This document shows, one piece after another, positions 4,660 through 52,062 of a stretch of 52,062 nt of DNA. Each line of letters starts with the position of its first letter. Positions within the stretch are counted from its first letter, which is position 1. The position numbers and the translations under genes were made by a program. The stretch is from a virus: IMG/VR virus record IMGVR_UViG_3300032053_000111, positions 1-52,062 of that record. One strand, 5' to 3'. The notes beneath the pieces are model-generated. The model made no database searches. It was given only the letters and a program-made list of their open reading frames with translations, and had not been told where the DNA came from.

Positions 4660-5781
4660 CTAAAAGTATACGTTCGTCTGTTTACAGTCAAGAACTGTAT
4701 CTTTATCTTGCTGCGACAAACCGTAGAGTCCCTGGGTTGTAATTAAGAAGTCTCTAAAGCTTGTAGTTACGTATGACATGCTTCTCCAGTAATAACCGAA
4801 TGCCTTGATTAACGGTAAACTCCAGTATTTACCGATAAAATGCACATCTCTGCATATGGTATCAAGTGGTACAAAGTGTTGAGGAAAAGGTCTAATTCCA
4901 AGTTTAACACAGGTTGCAGCCCTGTAGAATGCTTCATCAAACGTATCATGGAAATTGAAGATGCAATATGACATTATGCTTGATGGCCGCACACCAGCAT
5001 CAATCAACATTTGAATTGCTTTAGTGAATACCTCTTTTTCTGATAATCTGTCGAACGACAGTCTCAAACCTTCTTTATAGAATGAAACCCTTGCAAGGGC
5101 TACACAAACTTTCGGTGTTACATGCTTTGGATCTAACCCGTTATCTATTATTACTTGCTTACCAAGTTCACATAGATAATTGGCAACATTACAAACATGC
5201 TCGGTCGGAAACGATGATATGTTGTTATCACTAATCATTGCATACTGTTTGCTTGCTACAATATGTTCTCGCCAATTACTCACAATATGCCTATTTGGTT
5301 CTAGTCTCCATACACCACAATAGGCACATTTGTTAGGACAACCACGTGAGGTAAATGTAAACGAGAACTCATTCCATGGGCTTGCTATTTCCCAGTCTAC
5401 ATGTTGATAGTCAGGTACACATTGATCGAGTACATCAGACGTACCAACAAATACATTGATACCCTCTGGAAACATCTCAGGTATGAGAGAAGCACAGATA
5501 CCACCGACAATAATTGGTACATGCTGATCATATGACCTGACCTCACTGATGGCAAGTAGAACTTGAGGTAGATCATAGGTAAACAAAGAAGAAATACAAA
5601 CAAGATCACATGGGTATGATTTATAATACCTATGATATACAAACTGTTTACCGCTGATATATGTAGCAATCTTGGCCAAACCGAGCGGTAGATATTTACG
5701 GCTGTAGTTCGGTTCAAGCAAAAGCACAGATTTTGCTCCATCTAACATCCGAAGCATCTGTTGCTCATTTATCGTTGGCAA
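4660..5781 (-). CDS. Radical SAM protein with B12-binding-like N-terminal domain
   Basis: The 373-residue protein carries the radical SAM cluster motif C148-x3-C152-x2-C155 in TSRGCPNKCAYCGVW. The preceding 130 residues have the layout of a cobalamin-binding Rossmann domain (LLEPN, LPLGLAKIA, VGG), as in B12-dependent radical SAM enzymes; the classical DxHxxG histidine motif is not evident. Such enzymes methylate or rearrange unreactive carbons. The start is the TTG at 5781 with GGAG six bases upstream, and it overlaps the glycosylase-like gene by 17 bases. Its neighbours are a methyltransferase, a UDG-like protein and a U32 protein, all of possible use in base modification. The substrate is unknown. 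Confidence 0.85.
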   Translation of the reverse strand: MPTINEQQMLRMLDGAKSVLLLEPNYSRKYLPLGLAKIATYISGKQFVYHRYYKSYPCDLVCISSLFTYDLPQVLLAISEVRSYDQHVPIIVGGICASLIPEMFPEGINVFVGTSDVLDQCVPDYQHVDWEIASPWNEFSFTFTSRGCPNKCAYCGVWRLEPNRHIVSNWREHIVASKQYAMISDNNISSFPTEHVCNVANYLCELGKQVIIDNGLDPKHVTPKVCVALARVSFYKEGLRLSFDRLSEKEVFTKAIQMLIDAGVRPSSIMSYCIFNFHDTFDEAFYRAATCVKLGIRPFPQHFVPLDTICRDVHFIGKYWSLPLIKAFGYYWRSMSYVTTSFRDFLITTQGLYGLSQQDKDTVLDCKQTNVYF

Positions 5782-6424: not shown

Positions 6425-7063
6425 CTATTCTACAGTCTGAAAAGTGGACATATCTGGATATCGTCTTATCACAGGACAATCCTTCTGGTTACAATTACCT
6501 TCACGCATGGCATTGTTCCGCGGATGATTACAGCATGATGATGAAATGTCAAACACAGTGTGACTATCTCTTTCTTCACCTTTCCATGAAAAGAATGAAC
6601 AAAGTGGGGCAGAAGAAGTTTTAGGTATACTTTGTGTATTCATCGATTGTACACCTACAGATGGTACATGGTTTGTTTCTGTAACTTTTACCAGATTTTG
6701 TCTTTCTCTTTCTGTTAAAGCCATATAGACCATACCATCCAAAGCACTGTCTTTGATAGTCTTTGTTAACCTATCAACCTCCATGGGGTCATCCTGGAAA
6801 ATCTCAAGTAGTTCAAATATGTTGCCATATCGTGCCATCTTCATCACGGTAAAAATCATAGTTATATCGAATGCAGTTAATTCCTTACGCAGGATGATAG
6901 ATGAAATCATAGCAGTATCTTTGAATACATTCTGACTACTTCTTTCATATACTGCTCTTCTTGCCCGGTGTGTATTAAGTGCATCTTCCAACATACCTTT
7001 TACTACTTCGTTCGGGTCATTACCATGTTTGAGTTTGTCCTGATTGGTATTATTGTTGTCCAT
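6425..7063 (-). CDS. DUF6378-like protein with cysteine-rich tail
   Basis: I chose the ATG at 7063, seven bases behind AAGGA and inside the end of the U32 gene, giving 212 residues. Residues about 20-100 resemble the DUF6378 domain of phage proteins: an AVYERSSQNVFKD stretch followed by an LTAFDITMIFTVMKMARYG helix. The C-terminal 60 residues contain Cys and His (SCCNHPRNN, GNCNQKDCPV) and could bind zinc. The function is unknown. The tight overlaps with the U32 and UDG-like genes indicate translational coupling and a shared pathway. Confidence 0.6.
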   Translation of the reverse strand: MDNNNTNQDKLKHGNDPNEVVKGMLEDALNTHRARRAVYERSSQNVFKDTAMISSIILRKELTAFDITMIFTVMKMARYGNIFELLEIFQDDPMEVDRLTKTIKDSALDGMVYMALTERERQNLVKVTETNHVPSVGVQSMNTQSIPKTSSAPLCSFFSWKGEERDSHTVFDISSSCCNHPRNNAMREGNCNQKDCPVIRRYPDMSTFQTVE

Positions 7064-8156
7064 CTTTTTGTCCTTCAATAATTTGTTGATATAGACGAGT
7101 GCAGTGTTCACATGTATCAGAACACGCATCACTACTACAAGCAGGATTTAGGAAATATCTCTTATCAGCAAGAAACTCGATTGGGATATTCGGATATTTC
7201 TGAAGCATTTCCTTCTGAATTTGATTCTGTCCTTGATTTACATACGTAGCTTCGAGTTGACCCCACAATGCAAGCAGATTACCAGACCCCTTACCGGTGA
7301 TATACATCTGACCCACATTGCGAATGAATTCTGCTGGATGAGTTCTACCTGTAATCTTGAATCTTGTAATACCAGTCTTTTGGGTGTAAGCCACAATCCA
7401 ATCAGGCAGAATAAACTTGGCTTTCAACCATGCTTCAGGGTGTTCAAATCGTGATGGTCTACAAACATCCATCGGATTCCATGTTTGATCTGTACATTGG
7501 GCCAAGTAGCAAGATTGCCTATACAGCCCTTCACACTCAATACCGCCAATTGTACAGAATTCATTGACAAGAAGCTCAAGTGGTATAATTTCGTTTGCAC
7601 GAGCAAGCCATTCGGTGTCACGGTTTCTCCATAAGGCAGGACAAACCGAGATAACATTAGGCCAGTGTTTCTTTATCCACTTGAGATGTGCTATGGTGTG
7701 TACATTCATGATTGTACTAATTGTGACAGGTAGAGTAGGTTGTCTCACAACACGACCAAAATTGTTGGTGGATGATACCAGAAGATCCATTATTGCAGGA
7801 TGAGATACTATCAGAGAATCGAACATATATCTGTTATATGAGTTTTGTATCCAATTGACTACATCGGTGTAGTTTGAGGCACCATCTCTGAAGGCTGGCA
7901 CTAATGAGTTCATTGTCCATGTTATCTCAACATTTGCATCCCTGAGAAGTTCTATGCCATCCATATAATCAGACATAGTTACATCTACTTCACGTCTGCG
8001 AGGTCGAGTAGAACCAAATGGGTTTAATATACCAGGGGAACCATATACTCTGGCTATCCTGTTTGGATAACCATTATCCCTCTGAAAGGTCACCAGACCA
8101 ATTATTGCTTTTACGTGGTCAGAACTGAAGTTACAACCGATGTTTAGGTTTGACAC
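7050..8156 (-). CDS. Peptidase U32-family protein (TrhP/RlhA/UbiU-like)
   Basis: A 368-residue protein. The family signature is a cysteine cluster (C201, C208, C216, C221, C232) after VNEFC, then a helix and the segment FKITGRTHPAEFI, matching the FKIEGR motif of U32 proteins. Despite the peptidase name, characterised members carry an iron-sulfur cluster and hydroxylate substrates without oxygen: TrhP (tRNA uridine), RlhA (23S rRNA cytidine) and UbiU/UbiV (ubiquinone ring). Which family members share this exact cysteine set cannot be decided here. The start is GTG at 8156 behind TTGGAGA. It opens the run that contains UDG-like, radical SAM and methyltransferase genes. Confidence 0.72.
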   Translation of the reverse strand: MSNLNIGCNFSSDHVKAIIGLVTFQRDNGYPNRIARVYGSPGILNPFGSTRPRRREVDVTMSDYMDGIELLRDANVEITWTMNSLVPAFRDGASNYTDVVNWIQNSYNRYMFDSLIVSHPAIMDLLVSSTNNFGRVVRQPTLPVTISTIMNVHTIAHLKWIKKHWPNVISVCPALWRNRDTEWLARANEIIPLELLVNEFCTIGGIECEGLYRQSCYLAQCTDQTWNPMDVCRPSRFEHPEAWLKAKFILPDWIVAYTQKTGITRFKITGRTHPAEFIRNVGQMYITGKGSGNLLALWGQLEATYVNQGQNQIQKEMLQKYPNIPIEFLADKRYFLNPACSSDACSDTCEHCTRLYQQIIEGQKDGQQ

Positions 8157-8301
8157 TATAAGGGTCTCCAAAATTGAAATGACTTTGTTTTGCAGCCAAC
8201 ATCATTATTCCGAGAACGACGATAGTCCTATCTCTCGTCGAGAGTTTGGACTTCATCTTCCTGTCAGGATTATCGGGTATCTGGTTGTTCGATTCACTCA
8301 T
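8131..8301 (-). CDS. Small basic protein of unknown function
   Basis: A 56-residue product, rich in Lys and Arg near residues 14-25 (DRKMKSKLSTRDR), then a short hydrophobic stretch (TIVVLGIMML). The start is the ATG at 8301 because it forms an ATGA overlap with the stop of the upstream gene and AAAAGG precedes it. The open frame continues further upstream but lacks such signals. No family is recognised. Its 3' end overlaps the U32 gene start, so it belongs to that operon. Confidence 0.55.
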   Translation of the reverse strand: MSESNNQIPDNPDRKMKSKLSTRDRTIVVLGIMMLAAKQSHFNFGDPYSVKPKHRL

Positions 8302-8495
8302 GCTCGCCTTTTCATCGGAATCATCAAACCCTGTTTCCTGAAGTAATTCTTCCACAGTGCTATAGTCTTCATCGTTGCTCGAGACTTTGGAAACTTACTC
8401 TTGAGCAAGTTCATTACCAAATCATCCGATATTAAAGAGTCTTCATTGTATACCTCAAAAAGATAGCCAATTTCCGTTTTGAACTCAACATCCAT
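8298..8495 (-). CDS. Small protein, first gene of the enzyme operon
   Basis: About 65 residues from the ATG at 8495, preceded by AAGG at short spacing; a GTG at 8516 is an alternative. The C-terminal half (residues about 22-55) looks like a compact helical DNA-binding type segment ending in KNYFRKQG. No family is recognised. It is the promoter-proximal gene of the leftward operon that continues into the U32 gene and polymerase. Confidence 0.55.
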   Translation of the reverse strand: MDVEFKTEIGYLFEVYNEDSLISDDLVMNLLKSKFPKSRATMKTIALWKNYFRKQGLMIPMKRRA

Positions 8496-25956: not shown

Positions 25957-27315
25957 TCATTTAGATTCTATATCAGTATAGCCGGTATATCCAGCCATAC
26001 TAAAACCTTGGAAGTCACCGTCCTTTATACCCTTCCAGATTTTCTCATCATTAACTCGAACTGACATTACCCATGAACCTTTCTTTACTGGTCTTCCCTC
26101 TACTACAAAATCGGCAGGAGCAATGTAATTTTCCAACACAGTCGCATCTATCCTCGAACCTTTATGGTTTAGTCTGATTTCTCCACCATGTTCCATAAAA
26201 TAGAAACATGCCTTTCTAATCTCTTCAGCATCTGTAGTATCACCCTGAGAATCAACTTCATCTGGCTCATAGACAATACCACAAACAACTTGCTCATCAT
26301 TCTTCTGTAATGGAATAATAGTAATTCCCTTTTCTATTTCCTTGCTCAGAAGTGAAGCCACCCATATACGTTGGCCTTGTGCAACTGGAACATATGCAAC
26401 AAGCAGAATCTTATCTCCAAATAACTTGGAACCAGACAACTCAAGTTTTTTTGCATGCTCGTCAGCTTGAATAAGTTTCCATTCGAATTCGTCAAGCCTA
26501 AGCATTGCACCGTACTTATTGACAGAGCCACCTGGCTTACCGGGTTCAAAGATTTCTATTCCCTTACTGCCAGCATTCATCCATGACATTGATTCCTCAA
26601 CGTGTGTATCTTTCCACCCAAAACGTAATTTCTTACCATCGAGAAATCCATCAATCTTTGACAACCCAGTAAAGTTGCCAACCATTATCTCCCCACCCTC
26701 GAAATAATTATCACCTTCCCTCTTAAGACGAATATCAAGATGACAGGCTTTCTCACCAACTGCACCCTTGAGAAGCATCTTCAGTTTGGTAATACTCGCA
26801 GTCTTTGCTTCACTCGATATATCTTTCAGTTTAGCAACCTCTTCCTCTTCAATACCCATGATGTGAATCTGGGTGACACCTTTACCGGTATCATCCAGTT
26901 TGTAGTCTACATCTACTTTCTGCAGAACATTAGACTTATTGGCCAAATCAATTACCTGGTCAGCAGTATATGGCTCAGTTATATCCTCATCAATACCTAT
27001 CACTTGAGGATCGAGCCACTGTAATTTCCTTCCTTTGAGAATCATTCCCTCAACCCCAACAGTCAGGATTTGTTTTGTATTCGCCATAAGTTTGGTCACG
27101 AAAGTCTTACCCAAATCGACATATTGCTTGCCTTTGAACTCTACTGTATCATACTCTTCTTTTGTAGCCAACAAGCCACTTTTATACCTGTATTGGTTGT
27201 CCTTTGTTTCAAACCTTTCAAGCACCAATACTTTGATTTCTACAGATTTTTCTGTAAATTTCCCAATATCAAAATCATCAAGGAAATTTGCACCTATTAC
27301 TTTATGCCTTTTCAT
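25957..27315 (-). CDS. XkdF-like prohead protease with long N-terminal extension
   Basis: A 452-residue protein. The last 110 residues match XkdF-type phage proteases: CGIVYEPDEVDSQGD, an HKGS segment (H384), VLENYIAPADF, KKGSWVMSVRV and DGDFQGFSMAG. Residues about 185-310 contain H192-x-D194-x-R196 (HLDIRL) followed by a glycine-rich beta region, similar in spacing to the 3'-phosphoesterase domain of LigD; this likeness is weak. The first 170 residues are unassigned. The protease would process the scaffold and capsid proteins encoded next. The start overlaps the stop of the previous gene by one base. Confidence 0.7.
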   Translation of the reverse strand: MKRHKVIGANFLDDFDIGKFTEKSVEIKVLVLERFETKDNQYRYKSGLLATKEEYDTVEFKGKQYVDLGKTFVTKLMANTKQILTVGVEGMILKGRKLQWLDPQVIGIDEDITEPYTADQVIDLANKSNVLQKVDVDYKLDDTGKGVTQIHIMGIEEEEVAKLKDISSEAKTASITKLKMLLKGAVGEKACHLDIRLKREGDNYFEGGEIMVGNFTGLSKIDGFLDGKKLRFGWKDTHVEESMSWMNAGSKGIEIFEPGKPGGSVNKYGAMLRLDEFEWKLIQADEHAKKLELSGSKLFGDKILLVAYVPVAQGQRIWVASLLSKEIEKGITIIPLQKNDEQVVCGIVYEPDEVDSQGDTTDAEEIRKACFYFMEHGGEIRLNHKGSRIDATVLENYIAPADFVVEGRPVKKGSWVMSVRVNDEKIWKGIKDGDFQGFSMAGYTGYTDIESK

Positions 27316-28568
27316 TATATCTCCTTTACACTTACCTTGAATGTACCAGTAGAAGTAAGTTCAGTACTGGTCACTTTCAATTTTGTACCCTTTGATATAA
27401 CTACTTCAGATGTTGGAGTTATACCTGGAATATCATAGAAGTCTCCTATACCTTTTGCACTTTTCAGATCTGCTGTAATAACCATCGGATACATGCCTTT
27501 AGGAATAGGTTCTCCTGTTCCGCCGGGTGATGTATACTCGGTCGCATAACCCTCGTCATCAGCATAGGAAGATACATGCTTAACCACTATTACATCTCCA
27601 ACTTCCAAGTCAGCCATATCTTCATCTTTAATCCTGGTTCCCCTGTAAGCAGTAAGCTGTTCAGACGGAAGTTTATCAATAGCACGATAGAAATCATCTC
27701 GCAAAGCTATTGATTCTTTATCCGTAAGATCGCCAGTATCGACATGAGAAATCCTCGAACTAATATCAGGGTCCAACCAACTCTCTATTGAGCCCTTATC
27801 ACTACTCGATAATTTATTTGGTGGAGTCTTACTTCCACCTCCGCCTCCGCCAGATTGACTGCCACCTACTTCTCCAGGTCTACCTTCGTGACCATAGTTG
27901 CCTGATGTTGAAGATCCTTTATCAATCATCCTACTATGCAGTTCTTTAACCAAAACAGCAAGTTCTGTAGTAAACTGCTCATCCCAAACATCTGGAGTAT
28001 CTAAATCACCAAAATGATCAGATTTCACAACATGTATCTCAGTATCACCCTTCTTCCGGATTACCAAATCAAACAGAGGAATGTAAGAACTATGAGGACC
28101 GAATGCGGAATATATAAAACGCAAAGGTAGATCAGTAAGTTTCCCGATTGCACGTTTCAGTAGTAATTCTGTACTCTCATCCCTATCCTTTGTCCGTATG
28201 ACGACATCCATATCAAGCGCTTTACTTTTATCTACCACAAATGAACCTGCGATAGATACAAAATCAGGGATTATAACCTTATCCCCTACACCAGAAATAT
28301 CTAACCCAATTTTCTTGGCAAACATCGATTTCTTGAAAGCTGCACCATCAATATCACTTGTATTCATGGTCATTTCCCTTGACCTCATCTCCCTTGCAAG
28401 TGCAATATACCTATCCAAGAAATCCTGTCTATGGAGTGAACCGGCTCTCTGTTTCTTATTCCCCTTAAAGCTCTTAGACCATAATTGGATAAATCTGAGA
28501 CGCAGAGAATATAGCTCTTTCTCAGAAGTATCAATCAGACTATCTCTATCAATATCTTCTATCCTCAT
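27315..28568 (-). CDS. Nucleotidyltransferase and ADP-ribosyltransferase fusion
   Basis: A 417-residue protein. Residues about 60-185 have the polymerase-beta-type nucleotidyltransferase signature: AGS (107-109), a D119-x-D121 pair and a third acid at D167. A Gly-rich linker (about 232-247) leads to a second domain with ADP-ribosyltransferase features: LTAYRG (305-310), HVSSYA (331-336) and SEVVISKGTKLKV (387-399). The first position of the usual ExE motif is Thr or Ser here, so arginine-specific activity is uncertain. MuF-linked ADP-ribosyltransferases are often injected virion toxins. Head location is inferred from the neighbours. Confidence 0.75.
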   Translation of the reverse strand: MRIEDIDRDSLIDTSEKELYSLRLRFIQLWSKSFKGNKKQRAGSLHRQDFLDRYIALAREMRSREMTMNTSDIDGAAFKKSMFAKKIGLDISGVGDKVIIPDFVSIAGSFVVDKSKALDMDVVIRTKDRDESTELLLKRAIGKLTDLPLRFIYSAFGPHSSYIPLFDLVIRKKGDTEIHVVKSDHFGDLDTPDVWDEQFTTELAVLVKELHSRMIDKGSSTSGNYGHEGRPGEVGGSQSGGGGGGSKTPPNKLSSSDKGSIESWLDPDISSRISHVDTGDLTDKESIALRDDFYRAIDKLPSEQLTAYRGTRIKDEDMADLEVGDVIVVKHVSSYADDEGYATEYTSPGGTGEPIPKGMYPMVITADLKSAKGIGDFYDIPGITPTSEVVISKGTKLKVTSTELTSTGTFKVSVKEI

Positions 28569-32457: not shown

Positions 32458-32814
32458 CTACTTTTTCTTCGAAACCTTTTTGGTTTCAGATTTCTCTTCA
32501 GTGAGTTCTTGTTTCACATTCTCCATACTTCTCTTCAGTGCAATCCGTACAAGTTCTGCTTCCTCAGAAGACATCCTGTCTTCAACAACATTGAGGAATG
32601 CATCGAGAGATTTCAGATCAGGCAACAACTTCCTCATTACAGCAATAAGTACCGAGTCATCCGCTAATGCTCGCCTCACGAAGTGCTTCAACAGATTTTT
32701 CTTTGTATCCTTCTCTACACTCTTTATAGCTGCAATGAATGCATCATTCAATTCACCACGTGGTCCAACTGGTCTTCCATACGGATTACCTGATTGACCT
32801 TTCGTGAACGGCAT
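32458..32814 (-). CDS. Small terminase-like protein (DUF5681 type)
   Basis: A 118-residue protein starting MPFTKGQSGNPYGRPVG, the hallmark of DUF5681 proteins located next to large terminases. The rest is helical and ends in a Lys-rich tail. A DNA recognition role in packaging is likely from position. The binding site GAGGTG lies just upstream of the ATG. Confidence 0.72.
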   Translation of the reverse strand: MPFTKGQSGNPYGRPVGPRGELNDAFIAAIKSVEKDTKKNLLKHFVRRALADDSVLIAVMRKLLPDLKSLDAFLNVVEDRMSSEEAELVRIALKRSMENVKQELTEEKSETKKVSKKK

Positions 32815-33486: not shown

Positions 33487-34168
33487 CGTAGTACTCCTAT
33501 CTTAGTGCATAACCTATCTACGCAACACTCAAGCATGTGTTCACCAATAAGATTGGTTTCTCCCGTCAATCCTGCACGGTGAAGGCTGGGTACCATATTT
33601 ATAGGACCATCAATGATTATTATGGGACCTATCTGAAATATCCAACTTAGTCCTATAACTATCACTATTATTGGTCACGCCCTATATTAGTGCAGTTACT
33701 GGGGAAACGCTTGCACATATTATGTAACCTTATACCATAGGGAACATAATTCTAGCCTATCCCAATCTGTGTGGCCCTATAATATATGGGAGAGCAACCA
33801 ACCGTATCCATTATTATTATACACATGTGTAGTCCCATAATAGCAACTTCTAAGCCTGTACCAGTGCCTATATTATGCACAAGGAGGAGCGATATTATGG
33901 GACGCAGCGAGGGACATGCAAGCGAGCAGCTTACACTATTATAAGACCAACTAGGTATTGATGTTGGCTTATATAATATGGTCCAGTCTGGACCGCGATT
34001 GGATATTTTATGAGACACTGTATAGGAAGATTGGGTCCACTTTTAATGATAATACTGTCCAATGGAATCACCTATTATGGGACCAAATATGGAGAGGATA
34101 GAATGAGTCCTATAATATATCTGGGAAATAATTATAAGACTTAATGATAATGTCCTATAATATGTGAA

Positions 34169-34465
34169 CTATTTGCTTGTTATTTCAATAAAAGTTGGGT
34201 CACATAATAAAGCCAATCTAATAGCTTGCAGGTCACTTTTGCTTGTTGGTCTTATATTGTTGGCATTTTCGACACACCAAGTGAAGAAATTATGTGGACA
34301 AGTTATTTGGTGGTCTCGGCCAATATTATAAGACTTTGCCAATTGGCACGCTTGGTCAAAAGTGAACTTATTATTGGACCTTATTGCTGCACAAAGAACG
34401 TCACAAAATGTTTGACCGTGTTCAATCAAATGCATCACATTATTAAGCGCTTGTTCGGTTCCCAT
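34169..34465 (-). CDS. Hypothetical protein inside the repeat region
   Basis: A 98-residue protein with ordinary composition and no low complexity (ALNNVMHLIEHGQTFCDVLC, HNFFTWCVENANNIRP). GGAG lies seven bases upstream of its ATG, and the motif TATTATGGGA overlaps the start codon. Another motif copy (TATTATAGGAC) lies just after the stop. No family is recognised. Confidence 0.6.
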   Translation of the reverse strand: MGTEQALNNVMHLIEHGQTFCDVLCAAIRSNNKFTFDQACQLAKSYNIGRDHQITCPHNFFTWCVENANNIRPTSKSDLQAIRLALLCDPTFIEITSK

Positions 34466-34760
34466 AATAAGTCTCCAATTTGGTTAGAATTGATTGGTCA
34501 CATAATAAACTTGCCAATGGGCTTTGCCAATGGGCTCTAATATATTATAGCATGCAATTTGTTCAAAAAATAGTTAACTTACTTATGGGGCGTAAAATAG
34601 TTCAAATTTAATTATAGGACTAATGATAATATCCTACGTTCATTAAATGGCACTATTATAAGATCATATGAGCCCAAATAAAAATGAGTCCCATAGTCCA
34701 GTATGGAACCAGATTATGAGACCAACAGAAAAGGGGTGGTCCTATAATAATGATAATGTT

Positions 34761-34933
34761 AACCAACCGTTACACTCCCCATAATGTATCACTCACTGAT
34801 AAGAGTTTGCCACTATTATGGGGAGTTAGTGGTGTCTCATAATAAGTTTAATCTGATAGCCGTTTGAGACATATTATAGGATATGTCTCTGGTAGTCAGC
34901 GCGGCAACTTATTATGTGGCGTAACGGTTGGTT
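34761..34933. repeat. Nested perfect inverted repeats
   Basis: AACCAACCGTTAC (34761-34773) and GTAACGGTTGGTT (34921-34933) are perfect inverse complements of 13 bases. Nested next to the left arm, ACTCCCCATAAT (34774-34785) pairs perfectly with ATTATGGGGAGT (34815-34826). The pairing could form a cruciform in DNA or an RNA hairpin. It lies amid the repeat array. Confidence 0.8.
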
Positions 34934-35087
34934 TCAACACCCCATAATGTTGTTTATGCATCCTACATCTGACACATATTATAGGGTGTTAAAATCGATC
35001 GTTGGGAAGAGAAGTCCTATAATGGTGCTTAGTATTGACATATGCTGCAACCATTATAAGACTAAGTCCGAAGTCTCATAAGAATGC

Positions 35088-35423
35088 TTAATCGCGGTTG
35101 TTATAGGCATTCTTATACCACGCGTAGTGGTATTTGTTGAACTTGGTGGTTGGCTTGATAGATTTGGCCACCTTATAGGACTCTTCGTACGTCACCTTTT
35201 CGACTCCCTTCTTGTCAAAAATGGCAAAGATGGCTTGTGTGATGCTCTTTCGAACCTTTTTGCCCTTTTTGCCCTTTTTGCCATCCTTGGAATCCTTTTT
35301 ACTGGACTTTGGCGTTTTCTCGGTCGATTTGACCTTCTTATGGGTCGTTTCGACGAGTTCCGAAGTTCCCATAACAGTGGTTCCCTCAGCCACAACAGCA
35401 ACTCCATTATTGGACTCTAACAT
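35088..35423 (-). CDS. Lysine-rich protein with C-terminal AWYKN domain, copy A
   Basis: I chose the ATG at 35423 because AGGAG lies seven bases upstream; it gives 111 residues. A long Lys/Ser-rich tail (about residues 26-58) is followed by a compact C-terminal domain with ITQAIFAIFDKKGVEKV and KFNKYHYAWYKNAYNNRD. The same domain occurs in the proteins at 44046-44306 and 44656-45099. The basic tail suggests DNA or RNA binding. The function is unknown. This copy lies within the repeat array, and motif-like sequences occur inside its coding region. Confidence 0.75.
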   Translation of the reverse strand: MLESNNGVAVVAEGTTVMGTSELVETTHKKVKSTEKTPKSSKKDSKDGKKGKKGKKVRKSITQAIFAIFDKKGVEKVTYEESYKVAKSIKPTTKFNKYHYAWYKNAYNNRD

Positions 35424-36077
35424 TGTGTTACTCCTCATAAAAATGATACTTTGGAACGTTAGTGACCACAATTATGTGACCTATTTTGTGTCCCATAAAA
35501 CGTTCAAGGGAACACTATTATGGGCTCTTGTTGTGTAGGTCACATAATAGTAGCCACTAACTCCCGACATGGTACATTATTATATGCCGTATACTCAGTC
35601 CTATAATGTACCATGTCATCCATTATATGAGCGTTCAATACGCTACATAATCTTCTCCTTTCATCCCGATTTGGTTGTCAAAGAACATGGTTTTTATAAG
35701 ACTGACTTTGAACTTGTCTGAGCCACTGTATACATGTATATTATAGCATATTATTTATTAAATGAAAACCAAATAGTTTAATTTTGTTCAAATTTTATTA
35801 TGAGACCTACAATATAATATGTCCAATATCATCCAAACATTGGCTATATTATGTATGAAGTCCTATAATAGGAATTCTATACTTAGAATGTACAGAATCA
35901 AGATTTTTGCCAACAACACCTCGTTTTTGATAATGATAATAACCCAAAAAGTTATACATAATTGGAACTGAGAAAAGTGACGTTCTATTGGTAGTTAACA
36001 ATTGGTCCAGTTAGACAACTATAAAATATACTTGTTATAGGACCAAACTAGTCTCAAGTCCTATAACTGACTATTTG

Positions 36078-36320
36078 ATACAGATAGTACTAATGACAAT
36101 GTTGATATATACAGCACAGATAGTACATATGGTATGAATGAATTAAATGGTACAAATAGAATAAGTAATACAGATGATAAGATTGATATAGATGGTACAT
36201 ATGGTATAAACGACCCTAATGATAATGTTGGTATGGATGACATGAATGATACAGATAGTACACTAGTCAGATATGATATGGATTGTACAGATTGTATAGA
36301 TTGTACAAAACAGTACAAAA
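36078..36320. repeat. Degenerate GATACAGATAGTAC-type low-complexity repeats
   Basis: The 14-mer GATACAGATAGTAC occurs at 36078 and again near 36248. Between them GTACATATGGTAT recurs with flanking similarity. All copies keep the same reading frame on the plus strand, which would encode an Asp/Asn/Thr-rich chain (36134-36358 from the first ATG), but no ribosome binding site is seen. A tandem-expansion origin is likely. Confidence 0.6.
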
Positions 36321-36436
36321 CGTACAACCAGTATAGTCATAATAATCGGCACAAATGATATGTTTACTTTACATGATACAAAGTGTATAATGATAATACA
36401 CAGAATAAGCAGTACAGATGATACAAACAGAAATGA

Positions 36437-36530
36437 GTCCCATAATGCTATAGAGTCCTATAATACTCAGGTCCTATAATGTTATGGTCCTATAATAATT
36501 CAAGTCCTATAATAATTTGAGTCCCATAAA
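36437..36530. repeat. Six-copy iteron-like array, 16-18 bp period
   Basis: GTCC(T/C)ATAA(T/A) begins at 36437, 36455, 36471, 36487, 36504 and 36521, giving spacings of 18, 16, 16, 17 and 17 bases, all on the plus strand. This is the tightest part of the repeat region. Iterons with near helical-multiple spacing are classic binding sites for replication initiators. No initiator is identified here; the AAA+ helicase at 45.8-47.2 kb or the lysine-rich proteins are candidates. Confidence 0.85.
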
Positions 36531-36633
36531 AGGAGAGAGAGGGGAAACCAGCTATTGGAACTCAAGAAAAGTTGGGCGGTTATACCCCAGAATTTGACTT
36601 GAACATTTCAGAATGCGAGTAGATTTGATTCAT

Positions 36634-44045: not shown

Positions 44046-44306
44046 CTACTGGTTCCTGTACTTGTTCTTGTACCAAGCCAGATGGTGACCATCAAAAGTC
44101 GTATCGGGTTTGGCCTTCACTGCAACCGCCTTTGCCTGTTCGAGCTTGACCTTCTCGACTCCGACCTTGGCAAACAGCTCGAAAATGGCTTTGGACACAG
44201 CACCTCGCTTTGTCTTGCCACTCTTTCCATCCTTGATACCCTTGACATCCTTGGTTTTCTTGGTATCCTTATCCTTATCCTTATCCTTTTTGATGAACTT
44301 ACTCAT
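44046..44306 (-). CDS. Lysine-rich protein with AWYKN domain, copy B
   Basis: An 86-residue protein. The N-terminal half is rich in Lys and Asp (KKDKDKDKDTKKTKDVKG), and the C-terminal half has the shared domain: VSKAIFELFAKVGVEKVKL and TFDGHHLAWYKNKYRNQ. It is the shortest of three paralogues. The likeness to copy A (35088-35423) is strong over the last 55 residues. A nucleic acid binding role is inferred from charge. The start overlaps the next gene's stop. Confidence 0.75.
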   Translation of the reverse strand: MSKFIKKDKDKDKDTKKTKDVKGIKDGKSGKTKRGAVSKAIFELFAKVGVEKVKLEQAKAVAVKAKPDTTFDGHHLAWYKNKYRNQ

Positions 44307-44655: not shown

Positions 44656-45099
44656 CTAAACCTTTCTTTTGAGTTTTCCCTTCTTCCACTGGTTGAGATA
44701 CCAATTGTAATGATTTTTGTTGAATGGTGAGGTGGCTTTGACTGCAATAACCACATCATGCATTTCTTTGTAGGTTGGAACCTTCTTACCTTTGCTTTCA
44801 AGTAAATCAACTACTGCATTGGTTACTGAACCTTTACGGAGTGTAGGTTTTCGTGTAGTAGGATTAGAACTAGGATCAGTGAGTGCTCGTTTGGCATCCA
44901 TGATGCACCAGCATTGAACACACAATTGATTGGATATGCCGTTCAATGCATTCATGGCTTTATTACTACACCCTGGAGTGATGCATCTTAGATAGTCAAT
45001 ATCGAGTGAACTGGTACCATACTTGTGAGAGATGGGACCAATATCAGATTCTGCATCCGCATGTTTGGAATGCTTGAGTCGAAACTTACTGGCATTCAT
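44656..45099 (-). CDS. Zinc-ribbon plus AWYKN-type domain protein, copy C
   Basis: A 147-residue protein. The first half has a zinc-binding segment (CITPGCSN...LCVQCW), absent in the other two copies. The second half has the shared domain: SVTNAVVDLLESKGKKV and PFNKNHYNWYLNQWKKGKL. It is the promoter-proximal gene of the accessory operon. The three copies share the same fold but differ in the N-terminal attachment. Function unknown. Confidence 0.75.
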   Translation of the reverse strand: MNASKFRLKHSKHADAESDIGPISHKYGTSSLDIDYLRCITPGCSNKAMNALNGISNQLCVQCWCIMDAKRALTDPSSNPTTRKPTLRKGSVTNAVVDLLESKGKKVPTYKEMHDVVIAVKATSPFNKNHYNWYLNQWKKGKLKRKV

Positions 45100-51812: not shown

Positions 51813-51958
51813 TTTAGGAGGTCCTTTGCTACCTGCCCGAAAATCTTCTCTTGTGCTTTACGGTCACGATTAATGTCTTCCAACTTCTCAATACGTTCAG
51901 TTAGGCAAACAGTAAGAACTAGTTGGACAAATATACACAGGATAATAAAAGTTAACAT
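51809..51958 (-). CDS. Small membrane/coiled-coil protein across the contig join
   Basis: A 49-residue protein: a hydrophobic segment (MLTFIILCIFVQLVLTVCL) and a charged helix. A strong GGAGGAAG lies upstream of the ATG at 51958, which overlaps the 3' end of the phosphoesterase gene. Its 5' part also appears at 1-33 of the window because of the terminal overlap. Confidence 0.65.
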   Translation of the reverse strand: MLTFIILCIFVQLVLTVCLTERIEKLEDINRDRKAQEKIFGQVAKDLLK

Positions 51959-52062
51959 TGTTTTTCTTCCTCCTTTACTCTTGTAGTGAATTGACACATC
52001 AGCCCATCGTTTTCTGACCAAATGAACGAAGCACTTGCTCGATTCTTCTCGACAAAGCCCAT
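51926..52062. repeat. Terminal overlap, right copy
   Basis: This is the second copy of bases 1-137, with C at 51936 in place of T. In the minus-strand frame this changes residue 8 of the small membrane protein from Tyr (left copy) to Cys (right copy). Confidence 0.93.
51952..52062 (-). CDS. Partial phosphoesterase gene, C-terminal end (duplicate of 27-137)
   Basis: This fragment encodes the last 36 residues of the phosphoesterase at 27-1397. It is present twice only because the contig ends overlap. Confidence 0.85.
   Translation of the reverse strand: MGFVEKNRASASFIWSENDGLMCQFTTRVKEEEKQC

Follow-up and report, generated by a model that had tools for sequence, protein, structure and literature searches.

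Phage stoperator arrays, such as the repressor sites of mycobacteriophage L5, consist of many short asymmetric sites for one protein. These stoperators are spread between genes, whereas the sites of the array described here are concentrated in one 3-kb region. A precedent for a binder gene that holds its own sites is the lambda O gene, which contains ori-lambda (PMC3985674). Lambda has four iterons, compared with approximately 60 sites at the present locus, each 10-12 bp long and facing either way within a 3-kb stretch, and no similarity to lambda O was found by sequence. In addition, the globular domain of linker histone H1 is comparable to the proteins discussed here, as it combines a small winged-helix-like domain with a lysine-rich tail. 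H1.0 (7xvl) is a weak Foldseek match (E 0.83, probability 0.77) to the structural model of a wider phage domain family, the AWYR family. On the other hand, there is no sequence relation to H1 (no Pfam match), the tail is N-terminal here, and no wing is seen in the model of the three proteins at this locus. A further likeness is to the AWYR family itself, which has the same three-helix layout, a helix 3 of the WY(R/K)xN type, stand-alone members with lysine-rich tails and several copies per genome. The trio differs from this family in carrying HxxWYxN, in having one gene in a DNA motif array, and in having Phe in place of the Thr that precedes helix 3 and is near-invariant in the family (T44/T48). 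PHROGs already include, without a name, the kind to which these proteins are compared, a phage domain with multiple copies and no known function.

The window, i.e., the whole stretch of DNA that was analyzed, is the 52-kb (52,062 nt) tailed-phage record IMGVR_UViG_3300032053_000111 from IMG/VR, which derives from an uncultured virus. Its ends overlap by 126 bp (12-137 = 51937-52062), which makes it probable that the record is a complete genome assembled as a circle. Recognizable genes encode a terminase, a MuF-like head protein, a family-A DNA polymerase, a Sak4-like annealing protein, an ATP-dependent ligase and a DUF669 protein. A TerL search of bacterial and archaeal genomes gave no confirmed match pointing to a host. 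Two unusual auxiliary genes lie near each other, one with a weak B12-binding/radical-SAM match (4660-5781) and one with a weak U32-peptidase-like match (7050-8171). Also, a 417-aa protein (27315-28568) adjoins the MuF gene; a possible ADP-ribosyltransferase-type fold was seen by eye at its end, and no Pfam match was obtained. The features relevant to the domain and the array are as follows.

8298-8495, minus strand: possible fourth copy of the domain, 65 aa, in the more typical family form (SDDLVMNLLKSKFPKSRATMKTIALWKNYFRKQGL)
32458-32814: small terminase gene, close to the array
33590-36531, both orientations: array of RGTCCYATAATA sites, about 3 kb, with the P1 gene inside
35088-35423, minus strand: P1, 111 aa, lysine-rich, net charge +14, pI 9.9, gene within the repeat array
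35091-35252, minus strand: shared C-terminal domain of P1 (residues 58-111)
44046-44306, minus strand: P2, 86 aa, short Lys/Asp tail, net charge +14, pI 10.0
44049-44207, minus strand: shared C-terminal domain of P2
44656-45099, minus strand: P3, 147 aa, Cys-rich N-terminal part, net charge +14, pI 9.8
44674-44835, minus strand: shared domain of P3 (residues 89-142)
44905-44985, minus strand: Cys39-x4-Cys44 ... Cys60-x2-Cys63-x-Cys65 of P3, a putative zinc ribbon by eye, no Pfam match

The preliminary description of this DNA had proposed three open reading frames for a small family with one common domain, and all three are found at the positions given above, on the minus strand, with a domain of approximately 54 residues ending P1, P2 and P3. 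The Lys/Ser tail of P1 and the Lys/Asp tail of P2 are as it described them, and the P1 gene does lie within the motif array, as it had placed it. Other details needed correction. The helix AIFxxFxKKGVEKV is true of P1 and P2 but is looser in P3 (AVVDLLESKGKKV), and in place of the proposed final segment, [HN]H/YYxWYxN, the true shared motif is H-x-x-W-Y-x-N. The Cys-rich stretch of P3 (C39, C44, C60, C63, C65) is present, but no model recognizes the suggested zinc ribbon in it. P1 starts with ATG and has GAGGAG upstream, P2 has AGGAG upstream, both good ribosome-binding sites, and the upstream signal of P3 is weaker (AAAGGG). The pI values of the whole proteins are 9.6-10.0. P2 and P3 are located 8-9 kb from the array.

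By BLASTP, P1 shares 50% identity with P2 over 62 aa (E 2e-19) and 40% with P3 over 48 aa (E 6e-12), and a direct comparison of P2 with P3 gave no match. Between P1 and P2, identities at the first, second and third codon positions are 31, 35 and 19 of 52, so that third positions are least conserved, and different codons are used at 15 of the 25 identical residues. The amino acids are therefore better conserved than the DNA, indicating conservation at the protein level. Searches with the whole proteins and with the domains alone against Pfam, PHROGs and NCBIfam returned no usable match, leaving the domain unnamed; the best PHROG match was phrog_8191, for P3 only (E 0.0084). When the domains were compared by tblastn with 50,697 phage records, nothing or chance matches were obtained; scans of IMG/VR with P1, the query A2 or a motif pattern likewise gave no match or two chance ones, and query A2 did not find the domain in TerL relatives at 55-60% identity. 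Several candidates were rejected: EF-hand matches to a made-up consensus and matches of the A4 sequence search to designed repeats were judged to be chance, and TM0559 (2anu), from a PDB sequence search with A2, was a low-score composite match in which only scattered short pieces agree. No known histone or nucleoid-protein family matches the trio in sequence at the curated Pfam cut-off, and the earlier wording "like a nucleoid protein" is an analogy only.

The trio had been treated as a private family, and is instead placed here as one branch within a broader phage domain, of which a genome has many copies. This family was reached with a query of the "AWYRSKL" type, and the family link was tested with shuffles. 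The AWYRSKL-type query matched 69 phage records, at up to five places per genome. From six of these 69 records, 21 domain copies were collected, and an IMG/VR scan added 71 loci; 116 copies were obtained in all. The family is typified by the motif AWYR-KLR and is carried by Mesyanzhinovviridae, Pamexvirus, Achromobacter phage JWX and Roseobacter phage RDJL, with some members annotated as "putative TolA protein". Pfam has no model for the domain, and nothing on it was found in the open-access literature. It is present in PHROGs 17205, 38698, 34102, 17767, 16873, 21513, 35736 and 37268, all of unknown function, and no relative of known function was found. Among the larger phage records that were checked, 20 of 20 contain two to six AWYR copies, compared with three, possibly four, in this phage. 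The copies occur on different partner regions, and stand-alone members often have lysine-rich tails, e.g., MATKAKKTKKAAADKPAKKPGVGD.... In Stenotrophomonas phage QDWS359 (L028, 10923-14516), a 1197-aa head protein carries a MuF domain, two AWYR copies and a C-terminal ADP-ribosyltransferase domain. Weak family-HMM matches in MuF-like proteins of two relatives (G006 and G016) were left out of the members. No confirmed AWYR relative was found in 84,980 bacterial and archaeal genomes searched with one narrow pattern, a scope too narrow to prove that the domain is virus-only.

Multiple comparisons link the trio to this family. Profile-profile alignment with hhalign gave a probability of 93-94% (P 1.5e-7 to 3.5e-7), with similarity at the profile level spanning helices 1-3. 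The observed score of 34.5 was reached by none of 100 full column shuffles (maximum 18.6) and by none of 100 shuffles in which FNKYHYAWYKN was kept (maximum 25.3). When W and Y were masked, the probability dropped to 38%, indicating that these residues carry much of the signal, and the family HMM and the PHROG models gave no direct match to the trio. It is probable rather than certain, judged from these sequence profiles, that the trio is a divergent branch of the phage AWYR domain; as a variant of a multi-copy phage domain, it is new and divergent. The trio had also been taken as the full set, which missed a candidate fourth copy at 8298-8495. This frame scores 13.4 bits with the family HMM, compared with 11.0 for the best of 20 shuffled ORF sets, and has a family-HMM E of 9e-4 within its own genome and a profile-profile probability of 94%. 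It may thus be a fourth, more typical copy.

The shared domain was modeled once with AlphaFold2, from a three-row alignment of P1, P2 and P3 in which P1 was the modeled sequence. The model has three helices, at domain residues 2-15, 22-32 and 40-51, with a mean pLDDT of 89.9. An AlphaFold2 model of the family, built from 38 rows independently of the trio, has a pLDDT of 84.8, and helix 2 (11 aa), the following loop (7 aa) and helix 3 (12-13 aa) have the same lengths in both models. Foldseek and VIA-align place the trio model, at low significance, mainly near the N-terminal helix-turn-helix domains of TetR proteins, the DNA-binding domain of SETMAR/Hsmar1 and the Myb domain of PHR1. The neighbors of the family model include Fur/PerR, linker histone H1.0, mariner Mos1, PadR, SSV1 F-93 and a phage small terminase. 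All of these neighbors are weak, with Z scores of about 5-6, which fall within the range of common arrangements, and best Foldseek E values of 2.3 (trio) and 0.54 (family), none of them significant. In a viral library, a structural match was obtained to a "putative TolA protein" of Xanthomonas phage Xoo-sp2 (TM 0.67, E 5.8), a label that is also borne by AWYR family members in related phages. Another structural match, Cellulophaga phage gp030, was set aside, as no sequence resemblance was seen. All 104 relatives counted have a helix 3 with a net positive charge.

The array sits between the early genes and the terminase. It contains 40 sites with at most one mismatch to GTCCYATAAT, compared with 0.86 expected (maximum 4 in 200 simulations), and 66 sites with at most two mismatches. 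Its logo is RGTCCYATAATA, and the density is about one site per 45 bp. Rfam gave no family match in the region. A tandem run of six sites with a spacing of 16-18 bp is found at 36437-36530, and between two parts of the array (36100-36430), there are imperfect repeats of the GATGGTAYA/GATAGTACA type, which are unlike the main motif. Just upstream of the P1 start, a long inverted repeat (35458-35561) has 26-nt arms that are 88% complementary, a 52-nt loop and array sites in both arms; it could form a hairpin or a cruciform in the leader of P1. For a role in replication, partition or packaging, the array itself is a strong candidate. The relative with the closest TerL (70%), L004, has an array of this kind in the same place beside the small-terminase gene, with 12 sites in the first 520 bases and 9 in the other 5673; its contig ends within the array, and the P1 neighborhood lies outside it. 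No array was found in the examined stretches of TerL relatives at 55-60% identity, and in the phages of the AWYR relatives, the surroundings of the domain genes contain no repeat array that is comparable.

Array sites are also built into the coding sequence of P1. Two sites with at most one mismatch are observed, compared with 0.036 expected under synonymous recoding (none of 1000 simulations reached two), and four with at most two mismatches, compared with 0.7 expected (p 0.002). The same test gave no excess of array sites in the codons of P2 and P3. The sites in P1 are thus beyond chance, indicating that gene and array evolved together, which does not in itself identify the reader, and the spread of the array through the P1 gene may have had nothing to do with the protein that this gene encodes. 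To our knowledge, the link between the trio and a motif array is apparently new.

With a probability of roughly 0.55, and on the basis of the predicted fold, the basic helix 3, the lysine-rich tails and the array sites within the P1 gene, we consider the domain to be a helix-turn-helix-like DNA-binding module that is combined with lysine-rich tails, with P1 perhaps organizing the array. The suggestion of DNA binding in the preliminary description is thus supported indirectly. Such a small three-helix module would be reused by phages on several proteins. Helix 3 (ending in HxxWYxN here and in WYRxKLR elsewhere) would probably contact DNA, and the lysine-rich tails would add non-specific affinity for the backbone. 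P1 could then bind the array around its own gene, coating or bridging roughly 60 sites and thereby organizing the 3-kb region, be it an origin or a region for partition or packaging; the expression of P1 itself might also come under its control. P2 and P3 could be DNA-associated factors of the early region with a general role or with other targets; as they lie 8-9 kb from the array, the domain by itself has no fixed link to the array. We infer that sequence-nonspecific or array-specific DNA binding is probably the best explanation for the domain. That P1 is the reader of the array is more tentative and falls clearly below even odds, judged from the position of its gene and from the codon test. 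It is doubtful that P1 is the cognate binder of a new phage DNA element, i.e., a 3-kb array of approximately 60 sites with the gene of the binder inside, serving as an origin, partition or packaging platform.

The alternative that survives best, at slightly less than an even chance, is that the array is read by another protein, such as the adjacent small terminase, an initiator, a repressor or the host RNA polymerase, and that P1 lies inside it by an accident of gene order. The small terminase gene is close to the array both here and in the relative with the similar array, and the motif contains TATAAT, resembling a -10 box. Against this, the P1 codons contain more array sites than chance would give. 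This explanation and general DNA binding by the domain can hold together, and the probabilities given to the alternatives are not exclusive.

It is unlikely, but less so than RNA binding, that the domain is a protein-protein docking module or virion-targeting tag for one common phage partner, such as the capsid, the portal or a replication hub. Docking to a common partner would account for one phage bearing the domain on several unrelated proteins, and is in line with the two to six copies on different partner regions in all 20 records checked, and with the two copies in the MuF-ADP-ribosyltransferase head protein, for which DNA binding is not obvious. However, helix 3 is basic in every relative counted, the nearest folds are mostly DNA-binding, DNA itself could be the common partner, and in this phage no MuF or other structural protein bears the domain. 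Binding to RNA (messenger, ribosomal or regulatory), by a basic early protein taking over host translation or RNA turnover, is compatible with small basic early proteins with lysine-rich tails and with a weak structural match to a CRISPR-repeat-binding protein (2lvs, Z 4.4), but is improbable given structural neighbors that are mainly DNA-binding, array sites in the P1 gene that are features of DNA in both orientations, and the absence of an Rfam match in the region.

Returning to the preferred reading, a DNA-binding module, the AWYR domain is reused by dozens of phages, in proteins ranging from lysine-rich early proteins to a head-located ADP-ribosyltransferase, and has no Pfam model, name or function. 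The phage described here offers a natural test case, as the gene for one copy of the domain lies within densely packed repeats of one short motif. If it is true that P1 binds this array, this would be the first function for a domain that phages carry many times in one genome.
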